Shown one piece after another: positions 47,595 through 53,532 of a stretch of DNA of 64,000 bases (positions are counted from its first letter, which is position 1; every line of letters starts with the position of its first letter). The notes beneath the pieces are model-generated. The model was given only the letters and a program-made list of their open reading frames with translations, was not told where the DNA came from and did no database searches. This DNA is from Bifidobacterium commune (lineage in GTDB: Bacteria > Actinomycetota > Actinomycetes > Actinomycetales > Bifidobacteriaceae), in the NCBI RefSeq assembly GCF_900094885.1, contig NZ_FMBL01000001.1, forward strand, positions 214,867-278,866. Direction: 5' to 3'. Both the position numbers and the translations under genes were made by a program.

Positions 47595-49523
47595 ATGGCG
47601 GTACGTGGTGATATTCGAAATGTGGCGATCGTGGCTCATGTCGATCACGGCAAGACGACCTTGGTTAACGGGATGCTTCAGCAGTCACATGTATTTAGCG
47701 AGCGCGAGGAAGTGCCGGATCGTGTGATGGATTCCAACGATCTCGAGCGTGAGAAGGGCATCACTATCCTCGCCAAGAACACCGCTGTGCAGTATACCGG
47801 TCCGTTGGCCGCAAAGTACGGCGAACCCAATGGCATCACCATCAATGTCATTGATACTCCCGGACACGCAGATTTCGGTGGCGAGGTCGAGCGTGGCATT
47901 TCGATGGTCGATGGTGTCGTGTTGCTCGTTGACGCTTCCGAAGGTCCGCTGCCGCAGACGCGTTTCGTGCTGCGCAAGGCACTTGAGGCGAAGTTGCCGG
48001 TAATCTTGTGCATCAACAAGGTTGACCGTCCCGATGCGCGCATCAGCGAAGTCGTCAGCGAGTCCACCGATCTGCTTCTCGGCTTGGCGCAGGATGTCGT
48101 CGAAGAAGGCGTTGATCTCGATCTGGATTCCTTGCTTGATCTGCCGGTTATCTACTGCGCGGCGAAGGCGGGCTACGCTTCCAAGAACCAGCCTGTCGAT
48201 GGCGAACTGCCTGACAACGACAATCTTGAGCCGCTGTTCGACACCATCATCTCAAACATCCCTGCCCCGCAATATGACGAGGGTGCACCGCTGCAGGCGC
48301 ACGTCACCAACATCGACGCTTCCGATTACCTCGGTCGTCTTGGCTTGGTGCGCATCTACAACGGTACCCTGCAGAAGGGCAAGCAGTACGGTCTTTCGCG
48401 CATTGACGGATCAATCGAAAGCTTCAAGCTCACTGAGATTCTGCGTACGCAGGGTCTTGACCGCATGCCGGTCGACGAGGCTGGCCCGGGAGACATCGTC
48501 GCCGTTGCAGGCGTCGACGACATCATGATTGGCGAGACCATTGTTGATTCGCACGATCCCAAACCGTTGCCACTCATCCACGTCGACGATCCCGCGATTT
48601 CGATGACCTTCGGTACCAACGATTCGCCTTTGGCAGGTCGCGAAGGCAAGGATCACAAACTTACTGCCCGCATGATCAAGGACAGGCTCGACAAGGAGCT
48701 GATCGGTAACGTTTCCATCAAGGTGGTTCCCACCGATCGTCCTGACGCTTGGGAGGTCCAAGGCCGAGGCGAGCTCGCCTTGGCTATTCTGGCCGAGCAG
48801 ATGCGTCGTGAGGGCTACGAGCTGACGGTCGGACGTCCGCAGGTGGTCACCAAGACCATCGACGGCAAGATTCACGAGCCGATGGAGAACGACACGATCG
48901 ACGTGCCCGAAGAGTATATGGGCGCTGTCACGCAGCTTATGGCCGAGCGTAAGGGCCGCATGGACTCGATGTCCAACCACGGTTCTGGCTGGGTGCGCCT
49001 GCAGTTCACCGTTCCTTCCCGTGGTCTGATCGGTTTCAGGACCGCTTTGCTCACCGCAACTCGCGGCACCGGCATCTCGAGCTCCATTTCCGCCGGATAT
49101 GCTCCGTGGGCAGGCGAAATCAGCACCCGTCAGAACGGTTCCATGGTTTCTGATCGTGCAGGAACCGCCACGCCTTACGCCATGCAGCGTCTGCAGGCTC
49201 GTGGCAACTTCTTCGTCGATCCGCAAAGCTCGGTATACGAAGGTCAGGTCGTCGGCATCAACAACAAACCCGATGAGCTGGACGTCAACATCACGCTGGC
49301 AAAGCACATGACCAACATGCGTTCCGCCACTGCTGATGTCCTTGAGACTCTCACTCCGCCGATCAAGATGAGCCTTGAAGAAGCGCTTGATTTCGCCAAC
49401 GAAGATGAGTGTGTCGAGGTTACGCCGGAAGCCATTCGTGTGCGTAAGGTGATTCTTAACCGCGACGAGTGGTACAAGTGGCACGCTCGCCAGCGTCGTC
49501 AGAACGCTTCCAAGAAGAAGTGA
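47595..49523 (+). CDS. typA: Ribosome-associated GTPase TypA/BipA
   Basis: This 642-aa translational GTPase acts in ribosome assembly and stress adaptation. G1 'AHVDHGKTT', G2/G3 'EREKGITI' and 'DTPGHADFGGE', and G4 'NKVDRPDA' are visible, with EF-G-like domains II, III and V and the BipA C-terminal domain ('GRGELALAILAEQMRREGYEL', 'GLIGFRTALLT'). ATG 47595 follows GTAGGAGAGG. It is monocistronic, with its own terminator. Confidence 0.95.
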   Translation: MAVRGDIRNVAIVAHVDHGKTTLVNGMLQQSHVFSEREEVPDRVMDSNDLEREKGITILAKNTAVQYTGPLAAKYGEPNGITINVIDTPGHADFGGEVERGISMVDGVVLLVDASEGPLPQTRFVLRKALEAKLPVILCINKVDRPDARISEVVSESTDLLLGLAQDVVEEGVDLDLDSLLDLPVIYCAAKAGYASKNQPVDGELPDNDNLEPLFDTIISNIPAPQYDEGAPLQAHVTNIDASDYLGRLGLVRIYNGTLQKGKQYGLSRIDGSIESFKLTEILRTQGLDRMPVDEAGPGDIVAVAGVDDIMIGETIVDSHDPKPLPLIHVDDPAISMTFGTNDSPLAGREGKDHKLTARMIKDRLDKELIGNVSIKVVPTDRPDAWEVQGRGELALAILAEQMRREGYELTVGRPQVVTKTIDGKIHEPMENDTIDVPEEYMGAVTQLMAERKGRMDSMSNHGSGWVRLQFTVPSRGLIGFRTALLTATRGTGISSSISAGYAPWAGEISTRQNGSMVSDRAGTATPYAMQRLQARGNFFVDPQSSVYEGQVVGINNKPDELDVNITLAKHMTNMRSATADVLETLTPPIKMSLEEALDFANEDECVEVTPEAIRVRKVILNRDEWYKWHARQRRQNASKKK

Positions 49524-49780: not shown

Positions 49781-52516
49781 ATGAGTTCTCGTCATGCTTT
49801 ACATGCTAAGGCCCCGTCTGCGGCAGAGAAGAGCGTCTTGGGTAAGTCCCCCACCGATGCTGATGCTCGTCTGCCGTGGTCGTATCGTCAAAGCCCTGCC
49901 GTCCGTCTCTTGATTTGCGCGCTTGTTGCGATATTGAGCGGCGTATGCGGCACGTTGGTTCATCGTCTTGGGGCTCGATACAATGTGCCGGTGGGGCTGG
50001 TCCTGGCATTGGTGATTCTGGCAATCGCCACTTGGAGTGCCCGTGCCCGCAACGGTACTGTAGGTGTGGGGATTCAGTTGATGCTTTCGACCTTGGTGGC
50101 AGGATTCTTCGCTAATCTCAACGGTGACATTCTGGTGCCTGTAGGTTTCCACACATCTAATTTGCCTTTCTTCAGCCAGTACGTTGGTCTGTTCTGGCTG
50201 GGTGGATTGATCGTTGTTCCAGTCGCATGCATCTTATTGCCGTCGAATTGGTTCGTCATCCCTGAATACTTAACATCGAATACAAAGAGGAATATGGACA
50301 TCGTTGAACGTTTTGACAACGCTGATAAATTTGTTGAGCCTGTAGCGCCGGTTGGGTCAACTGTCCCCGTTGCTTCAGAGTCTTCTCAGGTTCCAGTTGC
50401 ATCGACCGCATTCGCTAATCATGTTGCTCAGATTACACCGGTTGTCTTGGAATCGGTCGCTCCGGCCGCTTCAACGCCTTCTGCCGAACAAGCTGCACCA
50501 GTTGAGTCTGTGCCAACTATTGCATCTGCTGGGCACGACGCACTCGTTGCCTCAGTCGTGTCTGCTGAACCGACGGCATCTGTCGCTTCGGTTGCCTCTG
50601 CTGTACCTGCTGCTTCTGCTGTTTCGGTTGGGCCTGCTACGTCTGCTGCTTCTGCTGAGTCTGCTGAGTTTCTTGCATCTGCAGAGTATGCTGCGCCTGC
50701 CGTTCCAGTTGAGTCTGTCGCTTCTGCCGTTTCTGCAACGCCAGTCTCACCTATCGCTTCTGCTGCTCCCGTCGTCTCTCCTACACCAGTTGCGTCTGGT
50801 GATTCTGCGCCGTCTGCTGCTCCCGTCGTCTCTCCTACACCGGTTGCGTCTGGTGATTCTGCGCCGTCTGCTGCTCCCGTCGTCTCTTCTACACCGGTTG
50901 CGTCTGGTGATTCTGCGTCGTCTGCTGCTCCCGTCGCTCCGATTGAGGCTATGAAATCAGGGGCGCAGCCTGCTTCTGCTGAGTCGTTCTCTCAAGCCGC
51001 GCCTGTAGAATCTGTTGAACATGTTGCACCTGTTGAGTCAGCCGCACCTGTTAAGGCGGACATGAAATCTGATCCTGTCGAATCCGTTAGCCTTGGAGCA
51101 TCTCAGGGTCTTGCTGAACGCGTTGCAGCCGCAGCCTCTGCTGCATCAGCTGGATTGGTTGGTCCGACGGTGTCTGTTCCTGCGATTACGCCGGTTGCAA
51201 CTGCTGAGTCCGCCACCCTGACTGAACTCGTGGCTTCTGCTACGCACTCGGCTTCTGATGTACCTGCCAAACCGGCTAAGACCAATGAAAATCAGGATAA
51301 GACGGGTTCTACATTTACCGCAAACGCAGATACCTACAATCTGGGTATCCGTGTCCCGAACCTTGCAACAGAGGGACTTGCGGCTTTGAAGAATACCAAT
51401 GCAGGCGTCGGAGTCAACAATAATTCACCTAAGGTTGATAGCTCTCGGGAACAACCGGCACATAAGATCATTACCGATGAGATAAACGTTGTGGAGGATG
51501 CTGCGGTCGATATGCAAGCGTCGTCTGCCGATTCCAGAACGCTGTTGTTCCTAGGACCGCAGGGTTCCTTCACTCATCAAGCTGCTGTCAGCGCGGCAAA
51601 CGGTTTCACGGAGCAGGGCATCACGGTCCATCTTGAGTCACGTGACAATGTGCAAGCGATCATTCGAGATGTTGAGGCTGGTCGTGGCTGGGGTGTCATT
51701 GCTTGGGAGAACAGCATTGAGGGTTTTGTTGTACCGAACCTTGATGCCATGATCGATGCGCACGATGTGGCTGGACTCGGACGATTGAGCATCGATGTTT
51801 CCTTTGATGCCTTTGTTCGTGCCGATGAAGGAAGCTCGGCGACTCTTTCTCCGTATGTAACGTTGAACCAGGTCGTGGCTCATCCGCATGGGTTGGCCCA
51901 ATGTATGGAATTCGTTCAAGAGCATCAGCTCACACCGGTTCCAGCATCATCCAACGCAGCGGCGTGTCGAGATATTCTACCGGGCCAAGTCGCGCTCGGC
52001 CCGTCGTTGTGCGGACCGTTGTACGGATTGAAAACACTTGAGCGCAAGGTGCAGGATTTCGACGGTGCCAACACTGATTTCCTCATCGTTGCTGCACGCG
52101 AAGATGTGAATCAGGTTCTCAAGTCCAGCCGTCAGATCGGTGTGAGTGATTACGAAACGATTATTGCAGTGGCTCCGTTGAGTACTGGCCCCGGCGTCAT
52201 GGCCAAATTGCTCGATCGGCTGCGTGATGAGGGACTGAACATGACCAGTCTTATGTCGAGGCCGATTAAGGGCAACGCCGGCACCTACAGCTTTATCATC
52301 ACACTCGATGCTGCACCATGGCAGCGCGGTTTTAAGCATTTTCTTTCACAGCTCGTGGCGGAAGGCGATTGGGTAAAGACGCTCGCGGTCTATCTTCGTC
52401 GTGATCGTCCGAACCCTCCAGTTGGCACCTGGATGCTGCCACAGGGCGGTATATGCTCCAATCGCTCGAAGCAAAATGAATCGAGAGTGGATGTAGAGAA
52501 GGAATTGTTGTGGTAA
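49781..52516 (+). CDS. pheA: Membrane-anchored prephenate dehydratase fusion protein
   Basis: The single 911-aa frame joins three parts. Residues about 35-155 form four membrane helices. Residues about 180-520 are a low-complexity Ala/Ser/Pro/Val/Glu linker with tandem repeats. Residues about 586-890 are a complete prephenate dehydratase (LFLGPQGSFTHQAA, 'WENSIEGFV', 'NTDFLIVA') with a C-terminal ACT domain ('TGPGVMAKLLDRLRDEGLNMTSLMSRPIKG'). The enzyme makes phenylpyruvate for phenylalanine synthesis; the ACT domain suggests feedback by Phe. Ordinary PheA is about 300 aa and soluble. The ACT/PDT part overlaps tyrA at its end, so both aromatic branches are coupled. ATG 49781 has only a weak ribosome binding site. 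No internal strong start was found just before the PDT part, though an internal start cannot be excluded. Confidence 0.85.
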   Translation: MSSRHALHAKAPSAAEKSVLGKSPTDADARLPWSYRQSPAVRLLICALVAILSGVCGTLVHRLGARYNVPVGLVLALVILAIATWSARARNGTVGVGIQLMLSTLVAGFFANLNGDILVPVGFHTSNLPFFSQYVGLFWLGGLIVVPVACILLPSNWFVIPEYLTSNTKRNMDIVERFDNADKFVEPVAPVGSTVPVASESSQVPVASTAFANHVAQITPVVLESVAPAASTPSAEQAAPVESVPTIASAGHDALVASVVSAEPTASVASVASAVPAASAVSVGPATSAASAESAEFLASAEYAAPAVPVESVASAVSATPVSPIASAAPVVSPTPVASGDSAPSAAPVVSPTPVASGDSAPSAAPVVSSTPVASGDSASSAAPVAPIEAMKSGAQPASAESFSQAAPVESVEHVAPVESAAPVKADMKSDPVESVSLGASQGLAERVAAAASAASAGLVGPTVSVPAITPVATAESATLTELVASATHSASDVPAKPAKTNENQDKTGSTFTANADTYNLGIRVPNLATEGLAALKNTNAGVGVNNNSPKVDSSREQPAHKIITDEINVVEDAAVDMQASSADSRTLLFLGPQGSFTHQAAVSAANGFTEQGITVHLESRDNVQAIIRDVEAGRGWGVIAWENSIEGFVVPNLDAMIDAHDVAGLGRLSIDVSFDAFVRADEGSSATLSPYVTLNQVVAHPHGLAQCMEFVQEHQLTPVPASSNAAACRDILPGQVALGPSLCGPLYGLKTLERKVQDFDGANTDFLIVAAREDVNQVLKSSRQIGVSDYETIIAVAPLSTGPGVMAKLLDRLRDEGLNMTSLMSRPIKGNAGTYSFIITLDAAPWQRGFKHFLSQLVAEGDWVKTLAVYLRRDRPNPPVGTWMLPQGGICSNRSKQNESRVDVEKELLW
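50759..50920 (+). repeat. Three 54-bp tandem repeats in the pheA linker
   Basis: Units 50759-50812, 50813-50866 and 50867-50920 are nearly identical and encode SAAPVVSPTPVASGDSAP three times, with a partial fourth copy. 54 bp is a multiple of three, so copy-number changes would keep the frame. Confidence 0.9.
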
Positions 52517-53532
52517 ATTCGGTCGGAATTGTGGGACTTGGTCTTATCGGCGGATCGTTGACCAGAAGACTGGCCCACGGTCAGATCGAAATAGTTGCTT
52601 GGAATCACAACGATCGTCCATATGCCGCAGCACGTGATGCTGGTATCAAATGTGTAGACTCACTTGAACAGCTGGCTGCTGCCAAGCCGCAGGTCCTTTT
52701 TCTGTGCAACCCGCTTAGGGCGATGCCTGAGATTTTGGAACGCTTGGCTCCCGTGCTCGATAGGAACGCCACTGTTCTCAGTGATGTCGGCAGCGTCAAG
52801 GGGATGGTGCGTCAGCAGGTTGAAAATGCCGGACTTGGCGATTGCTATGTCGGGGCGCACCCGATGGCGGGCAATGAATCGTCGGGATTTACGGCAAGCG
52901 ACCCGACGATATACGACGGCGCGCTTTGGGTGCTTACAGTTAATGAGCGCACTGATTATAGACGATTTCTTGACGTGGCCACGCTGATTACCGAGAGTGT
53001 CGGAAACCGTATCATCGTGTTGGATGATGCAACCCACGATCGCGCAGCCGCCATGATTTCTCATGCCCCTCACGCGGTATCCACGGCCTTGATTAACCAG
53101 CTGACTGAGAGTTCGGAGCGAAACATCGCAGCTGCGCTTGCTGCAGGAGCATGGCGTGACATGACTCGAGTCGGCCTGACTGATCCAGACCGGACACGTG
53201 CGATGATTGAGGAAGATGCTCAAAACGTTGAAGTGCTGTTGCGCGATCTTGCGAATCGTTTGACTTTGTTTGCCGACGAGCTGCATCGCAGCGATGATGC
53301 CGCGTTGACGCGCTTCTTCGAACAGGGACAGCCGTTCCGTGATTATAAGGCAGGTGAGCGTGCCGCGACCAATATGGCTGACGTCCAGATGAAGTGCACT
53401 GAACGACGGGTCTTGGATATTCCTGATTCCGAATGGCGCAGCGTCTTTCTTGATTCCGCTCGACGTGGTGAACATGTCATCCGTTTCATTCAGCCTTGGC
53501 GGGTTGAGGTTGAAACGCTCTCAAAAATATGA
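52510..53532 (+). CDS. tyrA: Prephenate dehydrogenase TyrA
   Basis: This NAD(P)-dependent enzyme makes 4-hydroxyphenylpyruvate from prephenate for tyrosine. The Rossmann motif GIVGLGLIGGSLTRRL is at the N-terminus, followed by 'DVGSVKG' and 'GAHPMAGNESSGF' with the catalytic His. At 340 aa it lacks a chorismate mutase part. GTG 52510 overlaps the pheA stop, with AAGGA at 52498-52502. It forms an operon with pheA. Confidence 0.93.
   Translation: MVNSVGIVGLGLIGGSLTRRLAHGQIEIVAWNHNDRPYAAARDAGIKCVDSLEQLAAAKPQVLFLCNPLRAMPEILERLAPVLDRNATVLSDVGSVKGMVRQQVENAGLGDCYVGAHPMAGNESSGFTASDPTIYDGALWVLTVNERTDYRRFLDVATLITESVGNRIIVLDDATHDRAAAMISHAPHAVSTALINQLTESSERNIAAALAAGAWRDMTRVGLTDPDRTRAMIEEDAQNVEVLLRDLANRLTLFADELHRSDDAALTRFFEQGQPFRDYKAGERAATNMADVQMKCTERRVLDIPDSEWRSVFLDSARRGEHVIRFIQPWRVEVETLSKI

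Follow-up and report, generated by a model that had tools for sequence, protein, structure and literature searches.

Layout of the fused reading frame

How did the prephenate dehydratase (PheA) of Bifidobacterium commune come to share one open reading frame with a membrane protein, and which proteins does that frame yield? Strain R-52791 of this species appears in PMC5540593 as an isolate from the gut of bumble bees. The genome carrying the fused frame is a draft assembly of 1,633,662 bases in four contigs, and the stretch analysed here (the window; 64,000 nt) belongs to its first contig; all features below lie on the forward strand, and positions are those of the window. The fused frame started with ATG at 49781, ended at 52516, encoded 911 aa without an internal stop, and lay within a stop-to-stop frame of 932 codons. 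It contained, in this order, a DUF6113-like membrane domain, a linker, and a prephenate dehydratase with an ACT domain (PDT-ACT), so that the single uninterrupted frame and the domain order of the original prediction were both confirmed.

The N-terminal approximately 42 residues were basic. Four hydrophobic segments lay at 49907–50239 (hydropathy, 47-member alignment, and AlphaFold model), and the membrane domain reached to approximately residue 160, some 420 residues away from the enzyme. The linker, delimited by composition (50333–51289; residues 185–503), consisted of 25% alanine, 18% serine, 16% valine, and 12% proline; it had been predicted at approximately 340 residues and measured approximately 320 (319 aa). 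Within it was a tandem repeat with a 54-bp unit in 3.3 copies (97% matches; 50759–50936). A dispersed repeat was considered for the linker and rejected, as a genome search at E 0.01 gave no further copy. The non-repetitive tail end (51290–51511) continues the frame as far as the old gene border, with a coding score for 51290–51490; the non-repetitive residues between linker and enzyme domain number 80 (504–583). Pfam, the structure model, and the PDB match placed the PDT and the probable ACT domain at 51530–52513 (328 aa; residues 584–911). The conserved upstream neighbor (47595–49523), a homologous ORF of which was found in relatives, is a gene that we take to be typA/bipA. Downstream, the GTG start of tyrA (prephenate dehydrogenase; 52510–53532; ORF list and profile match) lay 7 nt inside the end of the fused frame.

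The membrane domain

The best 19-residue hydropathy windows were residues 43–61, 69–87, 93–111, and 135–153. The AlphaFold model of the membrane part was helical (pLDDT 89), with segments 2 and 3 running on as a single helix. Because the model joins these two segments, four crossings are a hydropathy-based count only; the four membrane helices that had been predicted were recovered as four hydrophobic segments, but not as four helices of the model.

Eleven columns were invariant among 47 aligned members of the membrane family, for which no Pfam or NCBIfam model scored over its cut-off. When the family profile was run against 296 genomes of the class, it matched the B. commune genome and one other (G436, E 4.6e-11), and the protein matched in G436 was a DUF6113 protein (PF19608, 40.1 bits vs. 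a curated cut-off of 27). PF19608 itself gave no match in the B. commune genome at E 1 (six of 14 control genomes had a match at this value, none over the cut-off), and it matched one of the 47 family members (E 2.2e-4). As far as profile comparison goes, the domain is DUF6113-like rather than a DUF6113 member, with a relation that runs only through G436; we use this name because the domain itself had no direct PF19608 match.

In the fold search, the best PDB match of the membrane part reached E 0.34 only, and no known fold was assigned. An identity as Peptidase_U4/SpoIIGA was rejected (E 0.019–0.58, below the cut-off, one of 47 members). Matches of the family to NCBIfam models of the iron alcohol dehydrogenase type were treated as chance; 21 of the 47 members matched the lactaldehyde reductase model, the best at E 3.6e-4, and the member in the window scored 11.5 bits against 951.

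The prephenate dehydratase

The PDT domain matched PF00800 with 96.6 bits (cut-off 25.2, E 2e-27) over model positions 3–179 of 181, and the match to the ACT model PF01842 was weak (16.5 bits vs. a cut-off of 27). The structure model of the PDT-ACT part (pLDDT 87) matched solved prephenate dehydratases, among them 3luy, 6vh5, and 3mwb, over approximately 300 columns. The best PDB match was 3luy from B. adolescentis (50% identity, Foldseek E 2.7e-44; E 9e-108 by sequence), and the next matches included named prephenate dehydratases of Staphylococcus aureus, Brucella, and Arthrobacter. Entry 3luy is titled a putative chorismate mutase; its sequence and fold are close to the bifidobacterial prephenate dehydratase, and the title looks misannotated. 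The best NCBIfam equivalog, NF008865, was matched with 143.4 bits, below its cut-off of 219, and the enzyme therefore belongs to a divergent branch of prephenate dehydratase.

The threonine of the TRF motif has a catalytic role. At this position, the B. commune enzyme has TDF (52073–52081, in ANTDFLIV), in which threonine and phenylalanine are kept and arginine is replaced. The TRF motif is boxed according to a figure legend on plant ADT in PMC10845154, which also names an ESRP motif; SRP of the latter is present in B. commune. Across 163 loci, that of B. commune included, the TRF position read TDF in 90, TEF in 67, TQF in 4, TSF in 1, and TRF in 1, and the outgroup G436 had TRF. Replacement of the arginine of a known motif by an acidic residue is thus nearly family-wide (157 of 163 loci with TDF or TEF).

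The fused ORF was the only PDT match in the genome (all 14 control genomes were positive in the same search). Chorismate synthase and chorismate mutase each gave a single full-length match free of stops. If phenylalanine is made by this route, then the fused gene must serve for it. The complete PDT-ACT enzyme that had been proposed is apparently present, with an activity that is predicted. These findings weigh on an explanation in which the locus is decaying, the fused product has no function or is broken down, and the strain depends on phenylalanine supplied by the host. The small genome (1.63 Mb) would suit such decay, and a split pheA in a related strain (see below) indicates that loss may happen; against these points, the enzyme domain was open throughout and 68–70% identical to that of near relatives, tyrA was open, and the two chorismate genes were intact in length, and we consider decay very unlikely.

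Gene order and overlap in relatives

Searching the family sample of 189 genomes gave a pheA gene in 164, that of B. commune among them, and the surroundings of the 163 others were examined. The membrane gene and pheA were separate in all 156 other Bifidobacteriaceae genomes that had both; in the remaining seven of the 163, the stretch taken around pheA showed no membrane gene. The pheA start overlapped the stop of the membrane gene by 4 nt in 77 of the 156 and by 1 nt in two, showed another overlap in 13, and lay downstream of the stop in 64. No intermediate state of fusion was found among the relatives. Four of 159 loci (three genomes counted twice) were called separate with a stop inside the membrane match: in L101, L109, and L162 this is the natural end of the gene, and in L149 (genome G008) the stop precedes the membrane domain and the call rests on the open frame of pheA itself (305 codons). 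Further fusions in the family were considered where a long frame, of up to 1196 codons, was open around pheA, and were rejected, the membrane gene having its own stop wherever it was found; in one such long-frame locus (L037, genome G085) the membrane gene was not seen in the stretch. The original prediction had held that separate genes in close relatives, together with evidence for an assembly error or for a short soluble PheA alone, would speak against it; separate genes were what we found, and this is one half of that combination only.

The recurrent order in the sampled Bifidobacteriaceae was typA, membrane gene, pheA, and tyrA, with typA upstream at 155 of the 159 loci. For 145 of 159 adjacent tyrA genes, a start codon could be placed within the end of pheA. 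The overlap with tyrA, which had been presented as part of an unprecedented arrangement, is ordinary in the family and was set aside as a special feature. Because the order is recurrent and the tyrA overlap common, the neighborhood is old, the overlap is ordinary, and the loss of the border between the membrane gene and pheA alone is new.

Genome G436, the only outgroup, carried typA, a PIG-L deacetylase, DUF6113, a VanW protein, an ACT-like protein, pheA, and tyrA in this order (L076, 5741–14052; typA and tyrA were recognized by eye). The order in the window equals that of G436 minus the PIG-L gene and the genes between DUF6113 and pheA, which suggests that the bifidobacterial neighborhood may be a shortened form of an old cluster.

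In the complete genome of Bifidobacterium sp. ESL0682 (L002, 4944–6045; L161), pheA was split into two overlapping frames, as the result of a frameshift, pseudogene formation, or a sequence error.

C-terminal tails of the membrane protein varied between species, and 36 of 156 extended 30 aa or more past the matched domain. The longest was 89 aa (95 aa for the same locus, L010, by another yardstick). The tail of L036 was 69% alanine, serine, proline, and valine and ended normally. The B. commune linker is probably such a C-terminal tail in expanded form, the tail being the part of the membrane protein that varies freely.

The former border and the probable internal start

In eight of 13 junctions inspected in relatives, a GAG codon in the frame of the membrane gene, with G as the next base, stood among the last codons of that gene, 10 nt before ATGA. 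As ribosome-binding sites for pheA, these GAGG sites had duplex energies of −7.0 to −10.4 (L051 standing for the genome of L001). A comparable pattern was present in B. commune: GGAGG at 51493–51497, with GAG in the frame of the membrane gene, lay 14 nt before an ATG at 51512 and is the probable binding site of pheA. This ATG is codon 578 of the fused frame, six codons ahead of the enzyme domain. Its site (−9.3) was the best of all in-frame ATG and GTG codons of the ORF, whose own start reached −3.8; it exceeded the strength at 95% of 300 positions drawn at random (5% point, −7.0), and of the 239 in-frame ATGs that lie inside other ORFs of the window, two reached its value. Overlapping pheA starts in relatives (n = 79, by a slightly looser overlap test) had a median of −6.5 (quartiles, −9.0 and −5.7). 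When spacing was limited to 3–9 nt, ATG 51512 scored −5.6; given this value and a spacing that exceeds that of near relatives by 4 nt, initiation at this ATG may be weak.

When the junction was aligned by MAFFT with those of 11 relatives, the GGAGG of the window did not fall on their GAGG, so that a binding site retained from the ancestor is an argument from pattern and position. A 17-nt stretch at 51465–51481 resembled the tail end of L007 (the best of 11 relatives; reached in 0 of 500 mononucleotide shuffles); the same test gave 0.006 for L009 and 0.03 for L004, both of which matched elsewhere. The match to L007 suggests a rival border with a GTG at 51491 as the old pheA start, but with a site of −2.7 this GTG is the weaker candidate. 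With either start, a small net shift of frame would have occurred at the border.

Because a strong binding site precedes ATG 51512, a soluble PheA of 334 aa (P0001; 51512–52516) may still be made and perhaps is the main enzyme. The same site counts against a purpose-built membrane enzyme, in which the 911-aa protein would be the only product and tethering would place or regulate phenylalanine synthesis at the membrane. Such an enzyme would fit the open frame, the intactness of two domains that both align with relatives, the sole PDT match in the genome, and an even number of segments with positive ends that would leave PheA in the cytoplasm; it fits poorly with a fusion in 0 of 156 other genomes, with a linker of low complexity made partly of near-identical repeats, and with the solved B. 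adolescentis relative 3luy being a free enzyme. We judge it unlikely. The proposal that the pairing points to localization of the pathway or to a membrane sensor found no support, the partners being ancestral neighbors that are separate in every other genome with both, and a purpose-built membrane sensor of aromatic amino acids is likewise not supported.

Fusion or sequence error

A fusion seen in one species of the sample and in one draft assembly might stem from an error made at the gene border in sequencing or in assembly, in which case the genes would be separate as in relatives and only the expansion of the tail would be real. Besides the uniqueness of the fusion and the single four-contig assembly, the close stops in the other two frames (51478, 51483, and 51552) agree with this explanation, as one well-placed small indel would separate the genes. 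The codon scores disagree with it. Across 51290–51490, frame 0 scored +0.33 log2 odds per codon and the other frames −0.59 and −0.77. The mean of 191 true-frame windows of other ORFs was +0.28 (the same windows trained the table), and +0.33 was reached by 0 of 382 off-frame and 10 of 573 antisense windows. Frame 0 was top-scoring in every 150-nt window from 50741 onward. In the repeat-rich middle the frames were not told apart, and in the 150-nt windows from 50561, 50621, and 50681, frame 1 scored slightly above frame 0. Moreover, a one-base error between the binding site and the ATG would leave an overlap of 43 or 125 nt and not the usual 4 nt. With one draft assembly, a misread stop or an error at another point close to the border may still account for the fusion. 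We therefore regard an error at the border as rather unlikely, although not so improbable as decay of the locus.

Proposed origin and products of the fused gene

The reading that we prefer, and to which we give a roughly even chance of being correct, is a lineage-specific fusion of ancestral neighbors that would yield a membrane-linked PheA and an internally started soluble PheA. The ancestor would have had a small DUF6113-like membrane protein ending a few bases inside the pheA start, in another frame. In B. commune, the variable C-terminal tail of this protein would have been lengthened by in-frame repeats, and the stretch between site and ATG would have changed, with 15 nt after the GAG codon, where near relatives have 11 nt, and the reading frame would thereby have moved by one position. 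If the site is the same, and hence ancestral as we infer, then the four added bases account for this shift, and the membrane gene enters pheA and misses the overlapping stop. The order of these mutations is presumed as well.

Ribosomes starting at 49781 would make the 911-aa protein, with its C-terminal PheA in the cytoplasm on a long flexible tether, and ribosomes starting at ATG 51512 would make the 334-aa soluble PheA; the ratio of these presumed products, like any benefit, would be conjectural. With positive flanks, PheA would face the cytoplasm if all four segments cross; because segments 2 and 3 form a single helix in the model, the side of the C-terminus is uncertain. A stronger form of the fusion reading, which we hold only tentatively and consider doubtful, is a fusion in the making, in which most of the only PDT of the cell would be tethered to the membrane by approximately 420 residues, with a soluble form from the internal start besides. 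A single gene would then supply the first committed enzyme of phenylalanine synthesis to two locations.

If the fused protein is made, then the locus is a clear natural example of two overlapping genes becoming one. The route, if true, leads through a disordered, free-running tail, the loss of an overlapping stop, and a downstream start signal that is still in place. The locus also draws attention to an unstudied membrane family, whose genes adjoin those for phenylalanine and tyrosine in almost every Bifidobacteriaceae genome that was examined.

Comparison with known systems

Among the papers listed from the open-access literature searched, none described a fusion of PheA with a membrane protein, and nothing was found on DUF6113 or on B. 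commune in connection with prephenate. The closest free counterpart of the enzyme, the B. adolescentis PheA of 3luy, has the same enzyme domain at full length, but it is a free protein of 326–329 residues without a membrane domain or linker. The DUF6113 (PF19608) protein of G436 shares the neighborhood of typA, pheA, and tyrA with the membrane gene of the window, but unlike the latter its gene is not fused to pheA.

Fusion of PheA as such is familiar. According to PMC11237513, PheA fused with chorismate mutase is common in bacteria, and in two archaeal lineages chorismate mutase–prephenate dehydratase is further fused to prephenate dehydrogenase. In those fusions, as in B. commune, PheA lies in one chain with another protein; they join enzymes of the pathway, whereas the partner in B. 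commune is a membrane protein encoded by the adjacent gene in relatives. The type of event thus appears to be a known one, and a membrane protein as the partner of PheA appears to be new.
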